This document shows, piece after piece, positions 26,123-43,388 of a DNA stretch of 64,000 nt. Every line of letters begins with the position of its first letter. The first letter of the stretch is position 1. The stretch is taken from assembly GCA_037952775.1 (NCBI GenBank), contig JBANAY010000003.1:4092001-4156000 (forward strand), read 5' to 3'. The notes beneath the pieces are model-generated. The model did not search any database. It was not told the DNA's origin and worked only from the letters and a program-made list of their open reading frames with translations. Both the position numbers and the translations under genes were made by a program. The stretch comes from Clonostachys chloroleuca. Its lineage: Eukaryota > Ascomycota > Sordariomycetes > Hypocreales > Bionectriaceae.

Positions 26123-27755
26123 CTAGGTAGACTCCTCCACATTCTCCTCAACAGAACTGACCTTGGTCTTGGACTGCCTCCACCTCTGAAGAAGAGGGAT
26201 ACCAACCCCAGTCCAGACAGTCAGTGCCACGACCCAAGAGAGCGCGCTGCCCCATCCGTGGGTAGCGACAAACTGGGGCGCCTGGCTGCTGGGCATCTGC
26301 AGCTGCTGGAAAGGGATGACGACAGCCTGGCCGACGGACACCATGAAGCCGAGGACGAAGGCGCGCTTCTGCTGGTCGCCGCCGCAGGCCTCGTTGGTCC
26401 ACCCGGCCAGGAGGGGCGTGTAGCACCCGTAACAGCCCGCGAGGATGAACACGGCCAGCCGGAGGGTGTGAGGCACGGCCCACGCGGTGAGGACGGCGTA
26501 GACGAAGGTGAGCAGGGAGCCGACGGCGAAGCAGACGGGGGCGCGGCTGCCGATCTTGTCGGACACGTAGCCCGTGGTGACCATGAAGAGGAAGTTGACG
26601 GCGCCGACCGAGGTGGGGATGTTGTTGATCTCAGGGACGGTGTAGAGCTTGGTGGACTTGAGGTAGAGGGTGAAGTACTGGATGATGTAGGAGCCGCAGG
26701 TGAGGGTCCAGAAGGAGTAACCGAGGGTGAAGGCGTAGACCTGCCAGGAGCCGAAGATGCGGCGGATGATGGTCCAGTCGAGCTTGCCGACGGGCTTGCG
26801 GCCCTCCTCCTCGATGCGCTCGCGGCAGCGCTGCTTCTCCCAGTCATTCAGGTACCAGGCGGTGGTGGTGTGAGGAGTATCGGGGAAGCAGATCTATGAA
26901 GACGGTTAGCGACTCTCCTTCTGATGTTTCATAGGTGAAGTATATGAACTTACAAGGCCGTAGACAACTACAGGAATGGCAATGATGAAATCAAAGATGA
27001 AGAGCCAGCGCCAAGCGGACAGTCCACCCCTGCCTTCCATACCAGTGTACAGGGCAGATTGCAAGTATCCCGAGAACATCTGGCCCAAGACACCGCTCAT
27101 GACGAAGAGGCCTGATCGCCGGGACAGCTCACTCTTGCGGTACCAGCACCCAATGCAGTACATGACGCCGGGCCAGGCAGCCGACTCGAAAAGGCCGATG
27201 AAGAATCGCAGAGCGTAGAATTGGGAGGCAGTGTTGCACTTGTACAGAAACAAGACAAAGATGGACCACGTCATGAGGCATCCGCACAGCCAGTATCGGG
27301 GACGAACAACGGTGATGATCAAGTTGGCGAAGGAGCCACCGATGATGGTACCGATGCTGAAGTACGTGTTCATCCATGAGAGCTCGTTGCCTGGGCCGAA
27401 CTTGAGCTCCTCGGACATGCCTGAGACATAGGCATTGGAGATGTTGTTTTGATCAAGCTGGATTCCTTCATGTCAGATCTGATCGGGAGCAGGAGTGGTT
27501 TGGGTAACTTACCTGTTTGACGAAGAACATGAGACAGCTCCAGCTGAGCAGGAACCAGTCCAGCTTGAAGATCAGCTTCTTCTCCTCAGTCGAGGTCCCA
27601 GGCTCGTGCCAGTGAAACCACCCGGACGCAGGCTCTGGCTGTGGGGCTGCGGGTTTGCCAGTAGCTGACGTTACGGACGTCGCATCCTTTTCTTTGCTCT
27701 GTATCTCGATGGTATCAGGCGCAGCGGCCTTGACCGTGTCGGTTTGAGTGGCCAT
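26123..27755 (-). CDS. MFS transporter, anion:cation symporter type (allantoate permease Dal5-like)
   Basis: Plasma-membrane uptake of small organic acids, vitamins or nitrogenous compounds. Three exons, 27513-27755, 26954-27457 and 26123-26893, all phase 0, 505 residues. The start ATG at 27755 (MATQTDTVKAA) is the first in frame after the promoter. The first spans carry LDWFLLSWSCLMFF, LDQNNISNAYVSGM (the family's conserved loop) and NELSWMNTYFSIG. Later come LRFFIGLFESAAWPGVMYC and WRWLFIFDF. It is transcribed divergently from the alpha/beta hydrolase, and the shared 618-bp promoter holds a perfect TCGG-N7-CCGA palindrome. Likely the uptake step of the adjacent gene group (inference). No lesions. 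Confidence 0.93.
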
Positions 27756-28373
27756 GGCGGTGATGGGCCCAGCTTGGTGTAGTTGGATACAAAGAAGCAG
27801 GACACGGGAGAAAACAGAAGCCGCTGAAGAACAAGGCAGTTGATTGAACTGATCCAACGGATGTTTCAAATGGGATGTATACGAAGATCTTCGCGCAGTA
27901 TTTCAATGCACGAAGCCGTCAACTGCTCCAGCTCAGGAAGAGATTTCCACTCGCTAGCGGCCAGTCCCTTTAACACCAGACGAACCTATATGCGAACCAC
28001 TTTAAGCATCTCCCGATAACGCCCTTTGCTGGGGCGATGATACCATCTTGTCTCTAGCCAATGAGCGACTGCCGGCAGCAGGCTTCGGCCAACTGCCGGT
28101 TACTGCTTGAAGCAATTTGCGTCGGATGCTCCCCGACACGCTAGACCCCGACCATGGTGTAATCTGTTGATCTGTTGCGAGAGCGGGAAGAGCCCGGCCA
28201 GTGCTACGCGAGCCTGTTCGTTTGACTCGTGGGCTGGACTGACTCGTGGGTGTCGGCATCTTCCGCCATAGCGTCTTTCTCTTGGAAAGTGCGTGCGTGA
28301 GTGTCCTGTTTGTGGTTCATATACATGATAGATTGGCTAAGCCATCGATTTCAGGCGGCCAGGACAGATCACA
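27756..28373. promoter_or_regulatory. Bidirectional promoter between MFS transporter and alpha/beta hydrolase
   Basis: 618 bp separating two divergent start codons. It contains a 17-bp palindrome at 28121-28137, and a CGG-N6-CCG arrangement near 28254-28265. No gene is supported in it. Confidence 0.6.
28121..28137. promoter_or_regulatory. Perfect palindromic operator GTCGG-N7-CCGAC
   Basis: Reads GTCGGATGCTCCCCGAC. On the other strand it is GTCGGGGAGCATCCGAC, differing in two of 17 positions from the element at 33999-34015. CGG/CCG inverted half-sites with fixed spacing are the standard target of dimeric Zn2Cys6 regulators. Confidence 0.6.
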
Positions 28374-29437
28374 ATGGTGGAATTTGTAGAAATCAACGGC
28401 GCACGTCTCGCCTACCGTCTGGCTGGGCCCGAAGATGCCCCCTTGATGATCACTCTCCACGGCGGCCGTGGCTTCGGTTTGTGTTGATGATCTATGCCTT
28501 CATCTATAGCTACTTATTAATGAGAGGCAGGCGACCACAGATCGGATTTCAAAGTGTACAGCCAGCTGAGCGACAAGATCCGGGTCCTCTCATTCGACTA
28601 CCGAGGCCACGGGAAGAGCTCCCGAACAAAACCATACACCTTTGACCAGATTGTCGACGACATTGAAGGCATCAGGCACCATTTCCTCGGCGATGAGCAG
28701 GCCATCATCTGCGGTGGGAGTTTTGGCGGCTTCCTGGCGCAGCACTATGCCATCAAATATGCGTCGCGCGTGTCGCATCTGATCCTCCGGGGAACTGCGC
28801 CCTCGCACCATCGTGAGTCTTGGTAGAATCCGTCTGTGTGAGAGTCACGAGAGTCATCACTGACCAGCTGCAGATGAGGCTGGAGCCATAAAGACGCTCG
28901 AGGAGCGGGTGAGCAAGGTTCCCGGCTTCTCGGTCAACATGTTGAGGAACAAGGTCTTTGGGGCGTATGAGAGCGATCGCGAGTTCCAACTGGTATATTT
29001 TGCCATGCTGCCGCTTTATAAAGAAACATATAACGCGGACGCAGGTTTGAAGAGTGCTCTGGACATTGAATATGTGGCAGAGTCGCATAGTAAGAAGAGA
29101 CTTAACCTCCTAGCATATTCAATTTCTAATCAGTCATAGATGACCTCTACTCGGAGCAAGAAAAATACTTTGATTACACTGATCGCTTGTCAGAGATCAC
29201 CGCCAAGACGCTCGTCGTCGTGGGGGCGAGGGACTGGATTTGCCCGCCAGGTTCGTTGTCCAAATAATCAAGCCAGAGAAGGATTTGCTGACGATGAAAA
29301 ATGCAGAAAATTCCCAGCTGATTACTGAGAAAATCCCCGGCGCAGAACTATTCATGGTTGAAGGGGCGAATCACGGCGTGCACGCGGAGAAGCCAGAGGT
29401 GGTTTTGCCCAAGATACGTAGTCATTTAGGAATCTAA
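28374..29437 (+). CDS. Alpha/beta hydrolase (proline iminopeptidase-like fold)
   Basis: Serine hydrolase, probably cytosolic (no signal peptide). Five exons, 28374-28476, 28531-28812, 28874-29089, 29140-29250 and 29307-29437; phases agree, 280 residues. The oxyanion region is TLHGGRGFGDH, the nucleophile elbow GGSFGG, the acid ARDWICPP and the histidine EGANHGVH, so the catalytic triad is complete. The family includes esterases, C-C hydrolases and peptidases; the exact reaction cannot be read from the sequence. Divergent from the MFS gene, and it ends 47 bp from the convergent Zn2Cys6 regulator. Probably a hydrolytic step of the local pathway (inference). Confidence 0.9.
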
Positions 29438-29484
29438 TCGTAATAAACATGAGAAAGACAAGCTATATATACACACAATATTGG

Positions 29485-31890
29485 TTATAAAAAGCCCAAC
29501 TCCAGGTTGGTCCAGCCGTACTCATCATTAGGCATGCTGGTCGCGCCAGATACGTGCATCGCCGGCCCTACAGGCAGCGAGCTGAGCGTCTGGCCATTGG
29601 CACCATTCATCCCCGAGGCCGTTGTCGAAGAAGAGGAATCTTGTGCCCCGGCATCGTCTGGGAATTTGTACAGTGCGTAGCAAGTAGACCGGCCAAGGAC
29701 TTGCCGCATGAGAGCCAGGAACTCGTCGATGATGGCCTTGAGCCCGGTCTCGTAGTATCCCGTTGAGACATTCATGAAGCCTGCTGTGGAGGAGCCCTTG
29801 GAGGATACGAGGTTCATTAGACGTCTGAAGATCTGGACGGCCTGCCGGGCGTGTAGCCAGCCCTCGGGGAACGCCTCTAGGATGCTGACAATGACGGCGA
29901 CGTCGTCTCTGGCCGAGTACGAGACGCAGTCGACGGGACATGAGAGGAAGCAGTGCAGCAGGATCAGACCGACGGGGAAGATGCGGCAGAGTGTGACGCG
30001 ATTGAGAGGCAACTGTCGCTGCTGGAGAAGCACAGAAGTCGACTGTAGGTGCTTCTGAGCCAATCTAAAAAGCTCTGCTGGCGAGATGATGGAGCCGCTG
30101 GAGTTGAAATGGCACGGGTAGTGCAGCAGGAGCAGCAGATGGTAGTATCTCGCGCTCAGCCACGTCACGGAGCTATGGATGGGCACATTATCCGTCTCTA
30201 GAGGCGACGCCAAACACCCGTTGCTGTACCAGTTCTCTACCTCGGACTTGATCTCCTTGGCAATGGCCTGCCGGTCTGCCTGGGACAAGGCAGCGACCTC
30301 GGACTCTTTCCTGGTGTGAATCTGCTGGAGGATCCGATCCTCGAGCTGTCGAAGATGTATGACATGGCGGTTAGTCTGCAGCATGGATGCATACTGCTGG
30401 CGCTCCGGCGAGGCGAACTCATCAATGGTCAGTCCAGGGAGCGGGACATCCATGTTCTCGTCGACCAGCGCGACCTGGATGCCCAGCGAGATTGCCACCA
30501 TCCGGTCGAGCACGAATATACTCCAGAATAACCGGTACCGGAACTCGATGTCCATGGCTGAGGACGCCTGGACCTTCTCGTCCGGCTCCTTGCGACTCAG
30601 ACCTGCCAGCATGGCCTGGCGGGCGGCGAGACCGGTGATGGACCAGGTCGACGTTCCCTTGGGGTCGAAGAGCGCGTACAAGGCCAGCAGCACGAGAATC
30701 TGGAGCGCCTCAACCTCGTCCTGCCTGGTAAGACACTCCTGGATGATGTCCGAGTACGAGATGTGGAAGGTCGACGAAACATCCTGGGGGATCTGGCCGG
30801 CTCTCTGCAGCGTGGTGCAGCCGAGCGCCATGACGAGATACAGGAGGGTGGAATCAGTGCCACCGCGTTTCCTGGCCAGCGTGCCGATCACGTCGGCGTT
30901 GCGCAGCAGCTTGGACTTGTTGATGAAGGGATACGCCTTGTGAATGTTGCGGAAGTACGCGTCCACGAGCCGTCGAGCCAGAGTGTCCTGCGCCAGCACC
31001 GTGAGGTTGGAGTGGTCCATCTCCCCGTGCGCCATCAACTCGATGGCCCCCGGCGTCGCGATGCTGTTGTTTGGCGAGCCGTCGATCGCCATCTGCCCGC
31101 GACTGTGGCACGACACAGGTGAGTCTGAGTTGACCGTGGCCACCAGGCTCGGCGTCCGGTCGTGAGGCAGGCCAGGCGCCGGCATGCTGCCCTTCTCATG
31201 GTGCGGCTGCGTCTTTGGGAACGGCGCCATCTCGCCACGAGCGATGCCTTCGAGACGACTGCCACTGCTGCCCTTGCTCGCTGCGTTTGAAGACGCGTTG
31301 ATGGACGCTGACGCCGCCGCCTTGTCGCTGCCGTACGGGCTCACGGCACCGCCCAGCAGCGACTCCAGGTCGGTCCCCGTGTCGATGGACTGGACGCCAT
31401 CGAGGCCGGGGACGTAGACATTGTTGTTGATGAAGCTGGTCAGCCACTCGATGCGCGCGCGCAGATGCAGAGTCTGCGCGCCGGGAGACGTGGCGGGCGT
31501 CGAGAAGGAGCATGTGTGCCCGGCGCTCGCGCACAGGCTGCAGACGGGGAACGTCCGGCTGCATTTCTTCTTGAAGCTGCGGCAGCGGTCGCAGGCCGGC
31601 GTCCTCTCCTTGCCAGATCTGGGCGAGGGCGCTGTTGCTGCTGCTGTGCTCGACCGGCTCAGCCCAGGACCTGACGATGGGCGGCGCGACGACGATGATG
31701 CCGGCGTGAGCTGCTGACCACTACCTCCACTACCACCGCCATTGGTAGATGGTGACTGCTGCAGGACGTGAGACGACGATGGGGCTTCATCTCGTCGCAG
31801 AGGCGGCGAGGCTGAGCGCCGGGATGCCCTCGCAGCAGGCTGGCGGACTCGAAAGCGGTGCACACTGGAAGCCAGCTGGTCCGGCGGCAT
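29485..31890 (-). CDS. Zn2Cys6 transcription factor with fungal-specific (MHR) domain, likely local pathway regulator
   Basis: Single-exon gene, 801 residues, ATG at 31890. A long Ser/Arg/Gly-rich N-terminus precedes the zinc cluster at residues 100-127: ACDRCRSFKKKC, then FPVCSLCASAGHTC, giving C-x2-C-x6-C-x6-C-x2-C-x6-C. A linker helix follows (LHLRARIEWLTSFINN). The fungal transcription factor domain covers roughly 290-640 (ARRLVDAYFRNIHKAYPFIN, FRYRLFWSIFVLDRMVAISLG). Divergent from the flavin monooxygenase and central to a five-gene group whose promoters share TCGG-N7-CCGA, so it is the best candidate to bind that element (inference). No lesions. Confidence 0.95.
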   Translation of the reverse strand: MPPDQLASSVHRFRVRQPAARASRRSASPPLRRDEAPSSSHVLQQSPSTNGGGSGGSGQQLTPASSSSRRPSSGPGLSRSSTAAATAPSPRSGKERTPACDRCRSFKKKCSRTFPVCSLCASAGHTCSFSTPATSPGAQTLHLRARIEWLTSFINNNVYVPGLDGVQSIDTGTDLESLLGGAVSPYGSDKAAASASINASSNAASKGSSGSRLEGIARGEMAPFPKTQPHHEKGSMPAPGLPHDRTPSLVATVNSDSPVSCHSRGQMAIDGSPNNSIATPGAIELMAHGEMDHSNLTVLAQDTLARRLVDAYFRNIHKAYPFINKSKLLRNADVIGTLARKRGGTDSTLLYLVMALGCTTLQRAGQIPQDVSSTFHISYSDIIQECLTRQDEVEALQILVLLALYALFDPKGTSTWSITGLAARQAMLAGLSRKEPDEKVQASSAMDIEFRYRLFWSIFVLDRMVAISLGIQVALVDENMDVPLPGLTIDEFASPERQQYASMLQTNRHVIHLRQLEDRILQQIHTRKESEVAALSQADRQAIAKEIKSEVENWYSNGCLASPLETDNVPIHSSVTWLSARYYHLLLLLHYPCHFNSSGSIISPAELFRLAQKHLQSTSVLLQQRQLPLNRVTLCRIFPVGLILLHCFLSCPVDCVSYSARDDVAVIVSILEAFPEGWLHARQAVQIFRRLMNLVSSKGSSTAGFMNVSTGYYETGLKAIIDEFLALMRQVLGRSTCYALYKFPDDAGAQDSSSSTTASGMNGANGQTLSSLPVGPAMHVSGATSMPNDEYGWTNLELGFL

Positions 31891-32296
31891 AATAGGTCTG
31901 TCTCGATGAAAGGATCGGGCAAGACGTATCGCATCGCACCGGGTCGGGATGAGGACGACTGGCTTGCTTCAACGGAGGGTCCTTGATGTTCGCCGGCGGG
32001 TCAGTCTGTCACTCTGGGCTATCGAGCACGCCATCGAGCTGATGCTATTGGCACATCGTCTCTGGCCGGGATCCTCCGTTGGTGCCACTAATCTCGCAAA
32101 TTTCGCGCACATCCCCGACCGGCGGCCTTGCCACGGTCTTCGGTCTCATGACTCTGTACCGTGTGAAGCCCGTGGGAGCAGTGTGGGAAATCGCCTGATT
32201 GTAGGTTCGGGATGATCCATCGCCGGAGGCTGTAGATATTTATTATTGTTGTTTGCAACAGAGAGCAGAGAAAACAGCAGAGAAAACAGAAATACA
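31891..32296. promoter_or_regulatory. Bidirectional promoter between the Zn2Cys6 regulator and the flavin monooxygenase
   Basis: 406 bp with a near-palindromic operator at 31943-31959, a CGG-N6-CCG arrangement near 32069-32080, and no gene. Confidence 0.55.
31943..31959. promoter_or_regulatory. One-mismatch operator GTCGG-N7-ACGAC
   Basis: GTCGGGATGAGGACGAC keeps the spacing of the perfect copies and differs at one outer base of the second half-site. It lies about 50 bp upstream of the regulator's ATG and about 340 bp from the monooxygenase ATG. Confidence 0.45.
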
Positions 32297-33785
32297 ATGG
32301 CCGTCTCTCGCGTGGCCGTTATCGGTGCCGGCCCGTGTGGCCTCGCTGCTCTCAAGTACGTGATGATATCAAGATCGACATATTCAGCGATACGAAGCAT
32401 TTAAATTAACACCCGTGACTATAGATATCTACTAGCAGAGAAGACATTCTCCTTCATCCAGGCGTATGAGCAGAGGGACACCTTGGGCGGAGTCTGGGCA
32501 TACAACACCCTCACTCGCGAAGACAATGAATTTGCTATTCCAAGGACGAGGCCCTCGAAGACGCAGACGTCCCCGTCCAAGTCGCAGATGCGTCTGCCCC
32601 TCAATTTGTGTCAGCTGTGTACGACACACTCGAGACCAACATCCCGCACACGCTCATGTGCTTCGGGGACACGCCCTTCCCTACTGGCTCGAATCTCTTC
32701 CCCCTCATCAAGCAGTCAAGAAGTACCTGGAAGAATATGGGGAGGAAGTCAAGCAGCACGTTTCATTCTCCACCCAGGTGCTCACCATCGACAGGGTCCA
32801 GGACGGCGACAAAAAGCACTGGGAGATTGAGACGGTAGACCTGAAGACAAAGACGCAGCAAAGGACGCAGTTTGATGCCGTCCTCGTTGCGAGCGGTCAC
32901 TACAATGATCCGTACATCCCAGACATCCCTGGCCTGGTCGAATTCGACAAGGCATACCCCGGGGCCATCTCACACTCCAAGTTCTACCGCAACCCCAAAG
33001 ACTACGCCGGCAAGAAGGTCATCGTGGTCGGAAACTCAGCCTCCGGGATCGACCTGAGCGCACAGATCCAAACCGTCAGCAAGCTCCCCGTCATCATCTC
33101 GGAGCGCTCGCCCCAGGTCACAGGCGGCGACGAACAGTCAGGCTGGTCCAAGCAGGTCCCCGAGATTGCCGAACTCACCCCCGAGGGACGCAAGGTTCGG
33201 TTCGCCAACGGCCACGTCGAGGAGGACGTCGACGTCGTCGTCTTCTGCACCGGGTACCACTACAGCTTCCCCTTCCTGCGCGGCCTCTCGCCGCCCATCG
33301 TCACCGACGGATCCTACGCGCGCAACCTATACCAGCACCTGGTCTACATCAACGAGCCGACCCTGGCCATCGTGGGCATCCCGCAGCGCATCATCCCGTT
33401 CCCCTTCAGCGAGACGCAGGTCGGGTGGATGGCGCGCATCTGGTCCGGCCGGGCAAAGCTGCCCACCGAGGAGGAGATGCGGGAGTGGGAGGATGCGAAG
33501 CGCAAGGAGAAGGAGGGGCAGGAGAAGTCGTTCCACGTGATGCCCTTCCCGCAGGATGTCGACTACATAAATCTTCTACATGGCCTCAGCGAGAAGGCAG
33601 AGACGAAGCCTGGGTTGGATAACGGGGGGCGAGGCAAGATCCCCCCATACTGGGATGCGTACAAGAGGTGGCTGCGGCAGCAGACTCCTCTCATCAAGGC
33701 CGCGTCGAGGAAGTTGGGGGAGAAGCGGAGGGAGATTCGCACACTGGAGCAATTGGGATTCCATTACACCGAGGAGAGAAATTAA
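32297..33785 (+). CDS. Flavin-containing monooxygenase (FMO family), with two apparent frameshifts
   Basis: NADPH- and FAD-dependent oxygenation of a nucleophilic N or S (or Baeyer-Villiger) substrate. Exon 1 is 32297-32355 (MAVSRVAVIGAGPCGLAALK, with GxGxxG for FAD), and the intron has GTACGT and ATAG. Exon 2 starts at 32425. The FMO signature region reads YPGAISHSKFY, the NADPH motif is VVGNSASGID, and VVFCTGYHYSFPF matches the ATG motif. Conserved sequence lies in three frames. GGVWAYNTLTRED is in the first, SAVYDTLETNIPHTLMC in the second, and VKKYLEEYGEEVKQH to the stop in the third. One added T in the TTT at 32531-32533 and one added C in the CCCCC at 32700-32704 restore a single frame. 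No GT-AG pair bridges either break. Probably broken, or homopolymer miscounts. Confidence 0.85.
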
Positions 33786-33998
33786 GCGGCCATGTAGACA
33801 TTGAGCATCATCAGCATTCATCTTGGTAGATATCAGCATCAACAATTAACAATTATTCAATCAACGTATACGCTTCCTTGGAGCATCTGTGAGATAGCAG
33901 CAGGTTTATCGAGTATGTCTACCCACGAGTTAGACAAGCGTCACTGGGATTGATATGAGGATGAGCCCATTGAGCTTGACTCGGGCTGGTGGAGAAGA

Positions 33999-34015
33999 GT
34001 CGGGGAGAGTCCGAC
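33999..34015. promoter_or_regulatory. Perfect palindromic operator GTCGG-N7-CCGAC
   Basis: GTCGGGGAGAGTCCGAC, 350 bp upstream of the oxoprolinase ATG. It matches the reverse complement of the element at 28121-28137 in 15 of 17 bases, including much of the spacer. Confidence 0.6.
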
Positions 34016-34104
34016 AAGCGTTATCTTTTCAATAGCCTAAAGCACGCAATTCAATAATAATTCGCGCTGGGGCCGCTCATCGGACGGAAGACGACAGATT
34101 CTTG

Positions 34105-34121
34105 ATCGGGCGCAGGCCGAC
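34105..34121. promoter_or_regulatory. One-mismatch operator ATCGG-N7-CCGAC
   Basis: ATCGGGCGCAGGCCGAC. The TCGG-N7-CCGA core is perfect, with one outer base changed. It lies 244 bp upstream of the oxoprolinase ATG, in the same promoter as the perfect copy at 33999. Confidence 0.5.
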
Positions 34122-34364
34122 GAGCAGCCCGATGGGTGATTTTCACGGCCTCACGCCAAACGGCAGACCATCGCAAACGCTGTGTCCTAACTCAAGTGGC
34201 TGTCGGGCTAGTAGCCAAGAATTGAAAATCATTAGGGTTTCCTTCAATCGACGAATGATCTCCGACATTGCATGTTTGTCAAGCCTCAGTCTCAGATGAG
34301 TGTCGGGTTGGGATTCACATGAGCTGAGCTTCACAATCGGCAAAAAGAACGGTAAAATCTCAAG

Positions 34365-37300
34365 ATGACAGGCGATATCAGCGTCGCCATTGACCGCGGC
34401 GGCACCTTTTGCGATGTCATTGCCCAGGTCGAGGGCCACGAGCCCATCGTCTTCAAGCTGCTCTCTGAGGATCCCTCCAACTACCCAGATGCGCCCACAG
34501 AAGCCATCCGCCGCGTCCTAGAGAAGGTCGAGGGCAAATCCATCCCCGTGGGCCAAAAGCTAGATGGGTCGAGAATAGGTACGTCTGTTCCCGAGAAAGT
34601 GTGGCCTCGATATTGATCTAGCCCAGCTTCATGCCGCATCGGCACCACCGTGGCCACCAACGCGCTGCTCCAGCACAAAGGCGAGCGCTTCGCATTCATC
34701 ACTACAAAGGGCTTCAAGGACGTCTGCACAATCGGCGACCAGTCCCGTCCAGAGCTCTTCAATCTCAAGATCCGCAAGCCCAGGCCCCTTCACTCGGCCG
34801 TGGTCGAGGTCGACGAGCGCATCGTCCCCGCCGACTACGACCTTAATCCCACCCCTTACGACAAGCAGGTTCTCGTCGCCGAGTCTGAGGCCAGGCCGGA
34901 TGACCTCGTCCGCACCGTCAGTGGCGACTTCATCCGCATCCTCCGCCGGCCAGATCCCGCAGATGTCCGGGCCAAGCTCGAGGCTCTGCGCGCGGACGGC
35001 TACACCTCCCTGGCCGTCTGCTTCCTGCACGCCTACCTCTACCCGGCGCACGAGAATCTCGTCGCCGACATCGCCAAGGAGGTTGGGTTCGAGTTCATCA
35101 CCACATCGGCCCGGACCAGTCCCTCCATCAAGTTCCTCAACCGCAGCACCTCGACATGTTCCGAAGCCTACCTGTATCCCGTAATCAAGCGTTATGTTGA
35201 GGGTTTCACAGATGGGTTCCAGAACCTGCCTCGCCGGGTTGATTTCATGTGCTCAGACGGCGGGTTAAAGACTGCCACCCGATTCAGGGGCAACGAGGCC
35301 CTCGTCAGTGGTCCGGCCGGCGGAGTCGTGGGAATCGCCCGCTCATGTTACGATCCGGACGAGGGAACGCCCGTCATTGGTTTTGATATGGGCGGCACGA
35401 GCACCGACGTCTCCCGCTACGATGGCAAGTATGACTATCTAAGCGAGACGTCCATCGCAGGGCAGACCATCACAGTCCCGATGCTCAACATTGCAACCGT
35501 CGCGGCAGGCGGCGGCTCCATCCTGTTTGCTCGCAACGGTCTCCTTGCCGTTGGCCCCGAGAGTGCCGGCGCACATCCTGGACCGGCTTGCTATCGTAAA
35601 GGAGGCCCACTCACAGTCACGGACGCAAATCTGTTCCTCGGGCGACTGGTGCTTTCATCATTCCCTTCCATTTTTGGCCCTAATGCCAACGAGCCTCTAG
35701 ATCTCGAGATCGTGCAGGAGAAGATGGCAGAGATTACGGCTGATTTCAACCGGCAGACCAACCAGAGCCTGACCTCTGAGCAAGTCGCTCTTGGGTTTTT
35801 AGACATCGCCAATGAGACGATGAGCAGGCCAATCCGCAACGCAACCGAAGCCCGAGGCTTCGCTCCCGAGAATCACCATCTTGTCAGCTTTGGCGGTGCC
35901 GGTGGTCAGCACGCCTGTGATATTGCGGACAAGCTTGGGATCCAACGCATCCTGATCCACAAATGGTCCTCCCTTCTCTCTGCGAGTGGCATCGCCCAGG
36001 CTGACCTGCAGCACGAGGTTCTCGAACCCTTCGGCTCCAAGCTTGACGGAGATGCTTTGTCACACGTAGAACAGCGCCTGGCTATATTAAAGCAAGAGGT
36101 TGCAAGCCAACTCCAGTCGCAAGGAGCGCAGTCTGACTCTCTAGTCTATGATCAAAGTCTGGTCCTTCGGTATTTCGGAACAAATACTGATTTGACGATT
36201 TCTCAACCAGCCGATAGTAAGAGCTACGCGCAAGTGTTCGAGGCAGAACACCTTCGGGAGTTTGGCTTTTCTATGGGCCGTGATATTGTCGTCGAATCTA
36301 TCAAGGTCCGTGGAACCGGCAGCTCTGTGACTAAGGTGGAAGGGGTCTCGGCCTTCAAGGATCTCGCGGCTCGCGGCCAAACCTCGACAACTGCCCCAAA
36401 GGAGACTAAGCAGGTATATATCAACGGATCGTGGCAAGAAACGGGTATCTTCAGACTGGATGATGTACCCAGGGGGTCTAAAATTAACGGCCCTTCTCTT
36501 GTCATCGACGACACGCAAACTATCTTCGTATCCCCCAGCTTCCATGCCAATATCCTCACTACTCACATCCTCCTCCAAAAGAACTCCGCGACAGCTGAAA
36601 AAGAGTCCGCTGAAGGGCATGCCAGCACTTTGTCATCCAGTCTTGCTCTCGCCGCTGGCAGCTCTGCTACAGTAGATCCCATTCTCCTCTCCGTCTTTGC
36701 CCACCGGTTCATGGCCATAGCAGAATCAATGGGTTCGACGCTCCAAAGAACGTCCATCTCGACATCTATCAAAGAACGCCTCGACTTCTCCTGCGCTATC
36801 TTCTCACTAGAGGGAACACTCGTGGCCAACGCACCGCACATCCCCATCCACCTGGGATCCATGCAGTTCGCCATCCAAGCACAACATCGTCACTGGGCAG
36901 GCAAGGTGCAGCCCGGCGATGTGTTCTTGACCAACCACCCCCAGTGGGGAGGCACCCATCTACCCGACCTTACCGTCGTCACTCCTGTATTCATCGACGG
37001 TGCCATCGCCTTCTATGTCGCTTCGAGAGGTCACCACACCGACATCGGAGGAAAGGGAATCACCAGCATGGCCCCCGAAACCAAGGAGCTCTGGGAGGAA
37101 GGCCTCAACGTGCCCACGATGAAGATCGTGTCTGCGGGCGAGTTCCTAGAAGACGAAGTCCGCGCCGCGTTCAACAGGGCGGGAGACTTCCCCGGCTGCA
37201 GCCCGACGCGCCGCATCGCCGACAACATCTCCGACCTCAAGGCCCAGACGGCAGCGAACCAACGGGGCATAACCCTCCTCGGCAAGCTGTGCGGCGAAGC

Positions 37301-38327
37301 CACCCTGCCAGTCGTGCATAAATACATGAACAGCATCCAGGACAATGCAGAGCTAGCCGTCCGCTCATTCTTCAAGGATCTCGTTGCCAGCCACCCGGAG
37401 CCCTTCGAGGCTGTGGACCACCTCGATGACGGCACCGCGATGCAGGTGCGCATCAGCATCGATCCGGAAACTGGCTCCGCGACATACGATTTCTCCGGGT
37501 CAGGACCCCAGATGTGGGGGAACTACAACTGCCCCATCAGTATCTGCCACTCGGCCATCATCTACACCATCCGCTGCCTCGTGGACGTAGAGATCCCCCT
37601 GAACGAAGGCTGCCTGAAGCCAGTCGACATCAAGGTTCCCGAGGGGTCTGTCCTGAACCCGACTCCTAAGGTCGCCATCTGCGGGAGCACACTCGCCAGC
37701 CAGCGTGTTATCGATGTGATCCTGCGCGCCTTTGGCAAGCATGCTGCCAGCCAGGGCTGCGCGAATAGCTTCGGTTGGGGGATGGGCGGGAAGGATCCTC
37801 TAACAGGGGAGATCGTCAAGGGATGGAACTATGGCGAGAGTATCGGCGGCGGTGTTGGTGCCAGTGAGAATTACCATGGCGAGCATGCCACCCATGTAAG
37901 ATTTGAGGATTCTTGTTCGAAGTCTTTCTTAGAAACTAACGTAATGCTACAGGTTCATTCCACCAACACGCGTCAAACGGATGCAGAGGTGATCGAGAAG
38001 CGCACAGCAGTGCTGGTCCGCTCCTACGGAATCCGCCGTGGAAGCGGTGGTGTCGGTAAATGGCGCGGCGGCGACGGCATCACAAGAGAGATCCAGGCTC
38101 GTATACCTCTCAAGTTTAGTATTCTGAGTGATCGTCGCGTGTACCGTCCGTATGGTATGGCTGGCGGTGGTCCCGGGCACTCCGGTGCGAACTACGCATT
38201 TGTGTACAACGAGAAGGATGTTTTGGAAAGGGTGAATCTTGGAGGAAAGGCTGTGATGAATCTAAAGGAAGGGGAATATATTCAAATTAATACGCCGGGC
38301 GGCGGTGCCTACGGAAGCATAGAATAA
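34365..38327 (+). CDS. 5-oxoprolinase / hydantoinase A-B fusion
   Basis: ATP-dependent opening of 5-oxoproline or a related lactam or hydantoin. Exons 34365-34578, 34627-37895 and 37953-38327 give 1285 residues, the normal full length. The HyuA half starts [14 protein letters not shown] and has [18 protein letters not shown] after the first splice, CSDGGL and [12 protein letters not shown]. The HyuB half begins near [20 protein letters not shown] and includes [19 protein letters not shown] and [13 protein letters not shown]. The second intron (37896-37952, GTAAGA...CTACAG) is 57 nt with no stop, so an unspliced message would add 19 residues in frame. [16 protein letters not shown] across the splice fits the family better. 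The promoter has two TCGG-N7-CCGA elements. No lesions. Confidence 0.95.
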
Positions 38328-41065: not shown

Positions 41066-43388
41066 TCACATACTGAAATCAGGGTTAAAGCTATCCAGAT
41101 TTTGAAAGTATTGATCCAATAAGCCCTATTGAGTGTTAGTAACGGAGACCTATATCTCGTTTGTCTGAACTCACCCAGTCAAGACTCTCCGAACCATCAA
41201 TCATATGTGACATGGGTTCGGCATATGGGAGCTCCAAGTCGATATCGGTGGCTGTTGGGTCAACAACAGGGGCTGGTGATGGCGTAAAGCCGTAGACGCC
41301 CTTGTTAGCCACTTTTTTGATCATCAATTCCAGAGCCAGAGCAGCAATATGTGTCTCCGGTGATGCCGAGCGATTTCCCGCCCATATCCCCTGAGATACT
41401 TGCAGTGCTCTGTGCTCTCGGGTTGTCAGATCTTGGTCCCCAGCCACCACCGGTGACTGTGAGCGCATCCGGACAGAGAGGTCCAGGCACAACACCATAG
41501 CAGCGAGGAGGAAGTCGTGAATAGGCAATGACAAGACCATCCACCGATCATCATGTAATCGGCCTCCAGGCCCAGAAGCGTTGTGCAGATCTTCCTGTCG
41601 AGCAAGAATCTTCAAGGCGGCTTCCACAGATGCTCGTCGCGATGGAGCGTATTTGGGGCTATTGAGATCGTAACTTATATAACGCCGATGAAGAATCACG
41701 AGGCCCTTGAGGTAGAGAATCTCGATTGTGCAGCGTTGCAGAATCAACGCAGATGAGTCCATGAAACTACGGTTCACATCTCGCCGCTGGAACGTATCCG
41801 GCATGCTTGCGTAAACCCGGTTGAACTCGGCATCTAGTGCCAGTGTGGACTCGTAAGATGGGACTGTGAGAGCTTGTGTGTGCGCCGCAATCTTCTTGAA
41901 CATATTCATGACGGGGGCTTTCACGACAGTGTATAGGACAGGGGTGTGTTCGGAAAACGAACGGCTTGGAGGCAGCTCCTTCATATCCATGCGAAGATCT
42001 GGATAATCTAAATTCCGAGGTACTTTGGAGTCACAGAACTCGGACGGAATCATACTCGGAAAGCCTAACTGGAACGACATCAATGCCTCGATCTGGAATA
42101 TATTTAGCCAGACTCGTCGCCGCATCTCGCCATCAAAGGCAGAGATCCCAGCTAGATGTTCAGGATCGCGATGATAGCCCATGCGAAATGCAAGTCGAAT
42201 CACAGTGCCCATCTCGAACCATAAGTTTACAGGCGCATGGTCGCTTGTGATGAAGGATGTCTGAAGATGGATCAAAAAGGCCTCGAGTGCAAAGGAGTTC
42301 GCAGTAGCATACTTTCCTAGGATAAGACACTGGATGAGCCGCTGCTGCATGAGCCTAGTGGAGGGGATTGATTCATCTATGTCACCAGCTTTGGCAATAT
42401 TTTTAAGACATGTTGCAAAACCTAGAAGAGCGAAGAGTAGGCCAGTCCAAAGGGGCGGTGCTTTTTCTGGGGCATCCCAGAATGCCTCATACTAGAGATA
42501 TTTAATTCAGCAAAGTATGTAATCAGCTCCTGCTACTTACAGGTACTCACTTCTTTGAAACTTTGCAGGGTGAACGACTCCTTTCAGGATAAGATATCTC
42601 AGCTTCTAACCAGACAAGCGGTTATCAAAAAGGACTTACCTCCAACAAGAAAGCGAGTGGAGAAATAGAACGAAAGAAGCCGATCGCAGACAGGCTGCGG
42701 AGGCAGAGAGGTAAGTATGTCGCTTATATCCACGTTGGGATTCGCTCCAAATAGAAAGCTGGCGTCGGGCTCTATCCGGTCGTGTTCCTGGGATCCGCCA
42801 TCATAGGGCGAGGGGTGACTAGACCCAGACAAATGTTCTCGAACTTCTTTGATGTCTTCTAGAATCGACAGCCAGTGGTTTCGATCAATGTAGTGAACCT
42901 GGCCATCGCCTGTTTCGTGCATGTGAGGCGTCTCCGGAGTCAGCGCGTTGGCTTCCCCGCCAGCACGACCGGGACTTGAATTCGACTCTGAAGGTGTCAC
43001 ATTCTGAAGAGCACCTGATGCGGAGGGAGCTCTTCGCGTAGAATCATTCACACGGCCTCTGTCTGTTTGGATGACCGCGTCTCCCGATAGAAAGGACGAT
43101 ACCATCGCCTCAAGAGTATGTAACCGTTCCTTGAGCTCGCGCTGAGGCCCCGAGGGGGCAGGCCTGGTTCTGTTTGCGTTGCTCGCATAGTGGCACAGCG
43201 AAGACTTATTTCGTTTAACACATGAGTCACAGGGCAGCTCACGGTTGCACTTGAGTCTGCGGATTCACCAATTAGTCCACTGCCTGACACGGGAAATGGC
43301 CTTTTCAAGCTGACTTTCTGGTGCGACATGGCTCACACGAGACGGGCGGTCGATTGCGTTTTTCCACCTTTCTGGAGCCGGAATCCAT
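41066..43388 (-). CDS. Zn2Cys6 transcription factor with fungal-specific domain, frame problems in the N-terminal third
   Basis: ATG at 43388 (MDSGSRKVEKRNRPPVSC). Exon 1 is 43315-43388 and exon 2 is 42640-43257. Splicing restores CEPCRTRKLKCNRELPCDSC, a complete start of the zinc cluster. The last part of the cluster (LCHYASNANRTRPAPSGP) and the coiled coil (RELKERLHTLEAMV) lie in another frame; one base too many at the GG doublet 43200-43201 explains it. A 30-nt exon (42551-42580) is needed before YEAFWDAPEKAPPLW, but its phase also disagrees by one base. The main domain (41175-42491, e.g. LWFEMGTVIRLAFRMGYHRD, RRRVWLNIFQIEALMSF) is intact. A last exon at 41066-41125 ends LLDQYFQNLDSF. Divergent from the SDR. 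Confidence 0.8.

Follow-up and report, generated by a model that had tools for sequence, protein, structure and literature searches.

TCGG-N7-CCGA palindromes as putative operators in a five-gene group encoding its own Zn2Cys6 regulator in Clonostachys chloroleuca

Results

The window analysed here, a stretch of 64,000 nucleotides of Clonostachys chloroleuca DNA (C3:4092001-4156000; the assembly comprises 59.4 Mb in four contigs), carries a group of five genes. From left to right these encode an MFS transporter, an alpha/beta hydrolase, a Zn2Cys6 regulator, an FMO-like flavin monooxygenase and an oxoprolinase fusion protein, the first and third being read leftwards and the others rightwards (Table 1). 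The nearest PDB match of the hydrolase is a proline iminopeptidase, and that of the oxoprolinase fusion is an N-methylhydantoinase. In the assembly, the frame of the FMO gene shifts around 32530-32550 and again around 32690-32720, which may reflect either a decaying gene or assembly errors; intact copies exist, since a relative in another Clonostachys has 473 aa. The oxoprolinase family is expanded in this genome: about 13 loci, that of the window included, hold 47 matching pieces, and three weak single pieces come in addition. A second fungal transcription factor gene lies downstream of the group (window positions 41136-43264), with Fungal_trans on one exon and no Pfam match on the other, and a few GATA sites are present in the promoters of the group.

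Table 1. Genes and palindromic sites of the group, from left to right in window coordinates
Feature	Position	Strand	Remarks
MFS transporter gene, with introns	26123..27755	-	Pfam MFS_1 on two exon pieces; start codon from sequence
GTCGG-N7-CCGAC, perfect palindrome	28121..28137		MFS/hydrolase divergent promoter; about 366 bp to MFS ATG, 237 bp to hydrolase ATG
Alpha/beta hydrolase gene, proline-iminopeptidase-like, 280 aa, four predicted introns	28374..29437	+	
Zn2Cys6 regulator gene, 801 aa, single exon	29485..31890	-	
GTCGG-N7-ACGAC, degenerate; keeps GTCG-N9-CGAC, without CCG	31943..31959	+	Regulator/FMO divergent promoter; 53 bp to regulator ATG, 338 bp to FMO ATG
FMO-like flavin monooxygenase gene	32297..33785	+	Two frame changes in the assembly
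GTCGG-N7-CCGAC, perfect palindrome	33999..34015		Upstream of oxoprolinase gene, 350 bp from ATG
ATCGG-N7-ACGAC, degenerate	34079..34095	+	Before oxoprolinase gene
ATCGG-N7-CCGAC, perfect TCGG-N7-CCGA core	34105..34121		Second site before oxoprolinase gene, 244 bp from ATG
5-oxoprolinase / hydantoinase A-B fusion gene	34365..38327	+	

The initial annotation of this DNA had described two perfect 17-bp palindromes, at 28121-28137 and 33999-34015, agreeing in 15 of their 17 bases; both were confirmed, as was their agreement once one of the two is reverse-complemented. It had also seen, in spot checks, no TCGG-N7-CCGA outside the group, and our exhaustive scan agrees: the 64 kb contain exactly three (28122, 34000 and 34106), in two promoters of the group. 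The last of these had been listed as a one-mismatch copy, which is correct for the outermost base only, its TCGG-N7-CCGA core being perfect. In the case of the regulator/FMO promoter, the degenerate copy that had been reported is indeed there, but it is no CGG/CCG dyad: its right half reads ACGAC, and because of this CGG-N7-CCG is absent from that promoter, whose site lies in a stretch where the regulator frame stays open, with no in-frame ATG upstream of it. We therefore rejected the idea of a CGG-N7-CCG operator in all three promoters. The dyad is present in two of them, and what all three do have is the outer GTCG-N9-CGAC, of which the window holds three copies (28121, 31943 and 33999), one per promoter and none elsewhere. 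The degenerate copy at 34079-34095 is additional to the sites listed earlier. Within the window, the pattern TCGG-N7-[AC]CGAC has five distinct matches, and none is outside the three promoters, although the pattern was derived from these very sites.

How far these counts depart from chance depends on the question asked. Across the window, three copies of TCGG-N7-CCGA compare with a mean of 0.81 in dinucleotide shuffles, and the count by itself is borderline evidence because 6 of 100 shuffles also reach three. The genomic density (730 sites) predicts 0.79 per window, for which the Poisson probability of at least three is 0.046; values of this type overstate significance here, because the motif forms close pairs more often than a Poisson process would. 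Copies with one mismatch number 25 in the window (shuffle mean 20.1), a level reached in 19 of 100 shuffles, and degenerate copies are thus not enriched as a class. Within the three promoters (1602 bp in all), the expectation for TCGG-N7-CCGA falls to 0.03, and none of 2000 shuffles gives three sites.

We controlled for the choice of motif by accepting any 4-mer inverted dyad, with a spacer of 0-20, that had at least three sites in at least two promoters. Such dyads arose in 38 of 2000 promoter shuffles for any sequence and in 1 of 2000 for CGG-type words. In 5000 random triples of real segments, taken from 25 stretches (168 kb) of the same genome, 821 triples qualified with any word, 221 when the word had at least three different letters and 4 when it was of CGG type. 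Of the 18 copies of CGG-N7-CCG itself in the window, 5 are located in the promoters (1602 bp; binomial 6.4e-5); among the other CGG/CCG spacers, N6 is found twice in the promoters, and N5 and N8-N11 not at all. Because dyads of any word are common in these controls and CGG-type dyads are rare, the enrichment is convincing only if a CGG-type (Zn2Cys6) site is expected, and not if any palindrome is accepted. Read in that way, the promoters of the group have a common CGG-type dyad above chance, present in full in two of the three.

Genome-wide the picture is different. The initial annotation had named equal frequency in unrelated promoters as evidence that would count against the motif, and over the whole genome TCGG-N7-CCGA (730) is indeed about as frequent as TCGG-N6-CCGA (718; N6 is the sole other spacing counted), so that we rejected the N7 dyad as a genome-wide motif; it is nevertheless concentrated in the group. 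The longer palindrome GTCGG-N7-CCGAC occurs at 44 places in the genome, and two of these are the ones described here, 5.9 kb apart, where about 0.19 such close pairs would be expected. Only one other close pair exists (C4:9349163/9351115), and it was rejected as a shared operator since its first site falls inside an MFS-like coding stretch. Two further GTCGG-N7-CCGAC sites, C3:8706309 and C3:8957489, are exact reverse complements of each other, 251 kb apart, and are perhaps copies of one repeat. The 15-mer TCGGGGAGNNTCCGA has four exact places in the 59.4 Mb, two of them in the promoters of this group; the other two, C1:2261854 and C4:1928004, were rejected as operators because they are apparently parts of coding exons in an aldolase-like gene and a desaturase-like gene (these names, like the MFS-like one, come from reading the translations by eye and not from a family search).

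The dyad also clusters at other places. Among the first 50 distinct TCGG-N7-CCGA sites listed, there are three adjacent pairs within 250 bp, where 0.15 would be expected, one of the three being in coding exons; no triplet within 6.1 kb was found among those 50. Pairs were counted in the genome for gaps of 78-108, 1-31 and 109-139 bases only, giving 2, 3 and 1, against 2, 0 and 0 for a reversed-pattern control. The two pairs with gaps of 78-108 bases belong to the oxoprolinase promoter described here and to the divergent promoter of another Zn2Cys6 gene and an alpha-L-rhamnosidase gene, in which the two sites span C3:4691109-4691233. Furthermore, upstream of a malate synthase gene, three TCGG-N7-CCGA sites together span 175 bp (C3:6944558-6944732), and the dyad is therefore not exclusive to the group. 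TCGG-N7-CCGA thus looks like a type of working operator in this genome, not reserved for the local regulator, and another factor might use it too.

The regulator has a Zn_clus domain at residues 99-132 (PF00172, 32.9 bits; cut-off 21) and a Fungal_trans domain at residues 310-555 (PF04082, 101.7 bits; cut-off 23), and is 98% identical to a protein of C. rhizophaga and 94% identical to one of C. rosea. Some sources call it 'Stb5', which is an automatic name only. In an alignment of 19 regulators, made up of that of the window and 18 relatives hand-chosen from the best 120 listed, 20 of the 30 residues at positions 99-128 do not vary, and hardly any variation is seen in the linker that leads to the coiled coil. 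With the DNA-binding domain and linker nearly invariant, conservation of the operator, spacing included, is predicted as well.

In many other ascomycetes, linkage of the regulator gene is conserved both with the FMO gene and with the hydrolase gene, these three being the genes compared. Among the best 120 relatives of each, shared contigs were found for regulator and FMO in 24 cases, for regulator and hydrolase in 21, for FMO and hydrolase in 15, and for all three in 7. Relatives were counted as sharing a contig when their longest contigs were equally long; megabase contigs do not imply adjacency, and about 90 residues of the FMO query were out of frame. The species names agree by eye where both are given, save for two of the 15 FMO-hydrolase pairs, in which the cluster names are those of different Colletotrichum. 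In Colletotrichum musicola, regulator, FMO and hydrolase lie together on a contig of 20,596 bases. Consecutive locus tags place the FMO and regulator genes side by side in Fusarium zealandicum, Fusarium sp. NRRL 66182 and Neonectria ditissima (FZEAL_8267/8268, F66182_6372/6373 and AK830_g10931/10932), and the hydrolase and regulator genes in Phialemonium and two Apiospora (including VTK73DRAFT_5860/5861 and PG993_008451/008452). In scans for related DNA, 5 matches to the pattern were obtained in viral contigs and 68 in prokaryote contigs, with no relative among them.

Within the genome, the nearest paralogue of the regulator (45%) is on C4, beside an oxoprolinase paralogue and an MFS gene (C4:7415200-7425000). 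Of all the oxoprolinase paralogues, this one shares the most identity (68-70% over the longest two of its pieces), and the set of oxoprolinase, MFS and regulator genes is a duplicated sub-group. TCGG-N7-CCGA was not found there in C4:7410001-7416000 and C4:7419201-7431000, stretches that include little of the oxoprolinase interior. The open frame of the C4 regulator, however, continues from an N-terminal motif to the middle homology region without a Zn2Cys6 cluster. Because the regulator is without this domain, the missing operator proves little, and the C4 group was rejected as an uninformative test of conservation. Three other paralogues of the regulator (32-34% identity) lie within 30 kb at C3:826120-855227, each with the start of its zinc cluster interrupted by a likely intron.

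Discussion

We propose, with a probability of roughly 0.55, that the palindromes are putative operators of the group's own Zn2Cys6 regulator, in what would be a substrate-induced catabolic unit. A local regulon with a CGG/CCG operator had already been suggested in the initial annotation, and it is the reading best supported because of (i) the enrichment of CGG-type dyads in the promoters, (ii) the presence of a Zn2Cys6 gene within the group, (iii) the conserved linkage and (iv) the near-invariant DNA-binding domain; what has changed is that the operator is in two promoters, not in three. We infer that a homodimer of the regulator would recognise TCGG half-sites, inverted and separated by seven bases, and that in the presence of an inducer it would activate the oxoprolinase gene together with both genes of the divergent MFS/hydrolase pair, while the degenerate site at 31943 may give weaker, or indirect, control of the regulator's own gene and of the FMO gene. 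The gene set suggests catabolism of a nitrogen compound via ring opening, and the pathway might run from uptake through flavin oxygenation and hydrolysis to an ATP-dependent step that opens a lactam- or hydantoin-like ring. More tentatively, and with confidence well short of even, the proposal may be widened: the regulator family would read inverted TCGG-N7-CCGA, an element retained alongside the hydrolase-regulator-FMO unit in Sordariomycetes and outside them, and would mark an undescribed fungal pathway of oxygenation and lactam- or hydantoin-like ring opening.

A reading that overlaps with this one, being a variant of it, is that the sites do belong to the local regulator but that the true element is longer or different, for example GTCG-N9-CGAC or a TCGG half-site with a degenerate partner, so that the N7 CGG/CCG arrangement would not define it. 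We regard this as possible but rather doubtful. The one copy of GTCG-N9-CGAC in each promoter would be accounted for in this way, and both degenerate sites retain CGAC, not CCGA; on the other hand, three of the five sites retain both CGG triplets, which are the contact element of characterised Zn2Cys6 proteins. Binding by a single half-site has a case in TerR, which binds mainly via one CGG half-site, and best when a T precedes it (PMC4360782).

The chief rival to control by the local regulator is control by a Zn2Cys6 factor of wider reach, such as a FacB-type acetate activator, which would bind the sites and place the group in a carbon-utilisation regulon. FacB is a global acetate activator, unlike the local regulator proposed here, and has the consensus TC(C/G)-N8-10-(C/G)GA, with which TCGG-N7-CCGA is compatible in that it contains the outer TCG-N9-CGA. 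Of the 20 window copies of the latter, 5 fall in the promoters of the group, with all three promoters represented (binomial 1.1e-4), but these promoters show no more than a mild enrichment of the loose FacB-type consensus, with 10 of 195 window matches (binomial 0.026). The three dyads before the malate synthase gene also fit this reading, malate synthase being named as a direct FacB target in A. nidulans (PMC1794588). Against this, two of these three sites have CTCGG in their outer bases (the third has GTCGG), whereas the sites of the group have GTCGG or ATCGG, and the group has a dedicated regulator gene. On balance, we consider a FacB-type factor unlikely.

Finally, that promoter composition should have yielded striking but non-functional dyads, picked out post hoc, is in our judgement quite improbable: the window count, the lack of enrichment of one-mismatch copies, the frequency of any-word dyads in real triples, the clusters elsewhere in the genome and the fact that 730 sites make about 2 triplets within 6 kb expected somewhere (Poisson) would all allow it, but CGG-type dyads this strong are rare in both the shuffles and the real triples, the spacers are alike, half of the genome's copies of the 15-mer are in this group, and all three exact sites fall in promoters of a group that bears a Zn2Cys6 gene.

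Zn2Cys6 proteins form a very large family of fungal regulators, most of which, to our knowledge, have no known site. With regard to the operator of the local regulator proposed here, the half-site and orientation are those of the UaY and Ppr1 site, TCGG-N6-CCGA, whose spacer is one base shorter and whose targets are unrelated. Other parts of the arrangement recur in the systems that follow. PDR-1/RhaR, a catabolic regulator as would be the case here, has a site with inverted TCGG half-sites but a spacer of 11 in place of 7 (TCGG-X11-CCGA; PMC5469009). AcuK/AcuM share the spacer of 7 (CCGN7CCG; PMC11373862), but their site is a direct and not an inverted repeat, and they are global regulators of gluconeogenesis. 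A further parallel is GliZ, for which TCGGN3CCGA has been proposed in the promoters of the gliotoxin cluster except those of gliZ and gliA (PMC4006717): both systems have a local Zn2Cys6 regulator and inverted TCGG half-sites in cluster promoters, and GliZ offers a precedent for a regulator gene without a site of its own. They differ in the spacer (3 in GliZ, 7 here) and in the genes concerned, which serve secondary-metabolite biosynthesis in the one and are of a catabolic type in the other; in that paper, the GliZ site is a proposal given without experimental proof.

As for the enzymes, the oxoprolinase fusion compares with the 5-oxoprolinase/N-methylhydantoinase/caprolactamase superfamily, here with its hydantoinase A and B domains on a single chain, and scores 276 and 158 bits against the caprolactamase equivalogs, far under their cut-off of 1000. 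A literature text search, in which bracketed spellings of sites are unsearchable, found neither an inverted N7 TCGG/CGG element in the six spellings tried nor, among the titles listed, a published cluster with this combination of enzymes; the FacB consensus did not turn up in print either. A local Zn2Cys6 operator with inverted TCGG half-sites is accordingly of a known kind, while a spacer of 7 in this orientation was not found described. For a regulator whose DNA-binding domain is near-invariant across many ascomycetes, there is now a concrete prediction of the operator, inverted TCGG with a spacer of 7, together with a linked set of enzymes whose pathway could thereby be opened to study.
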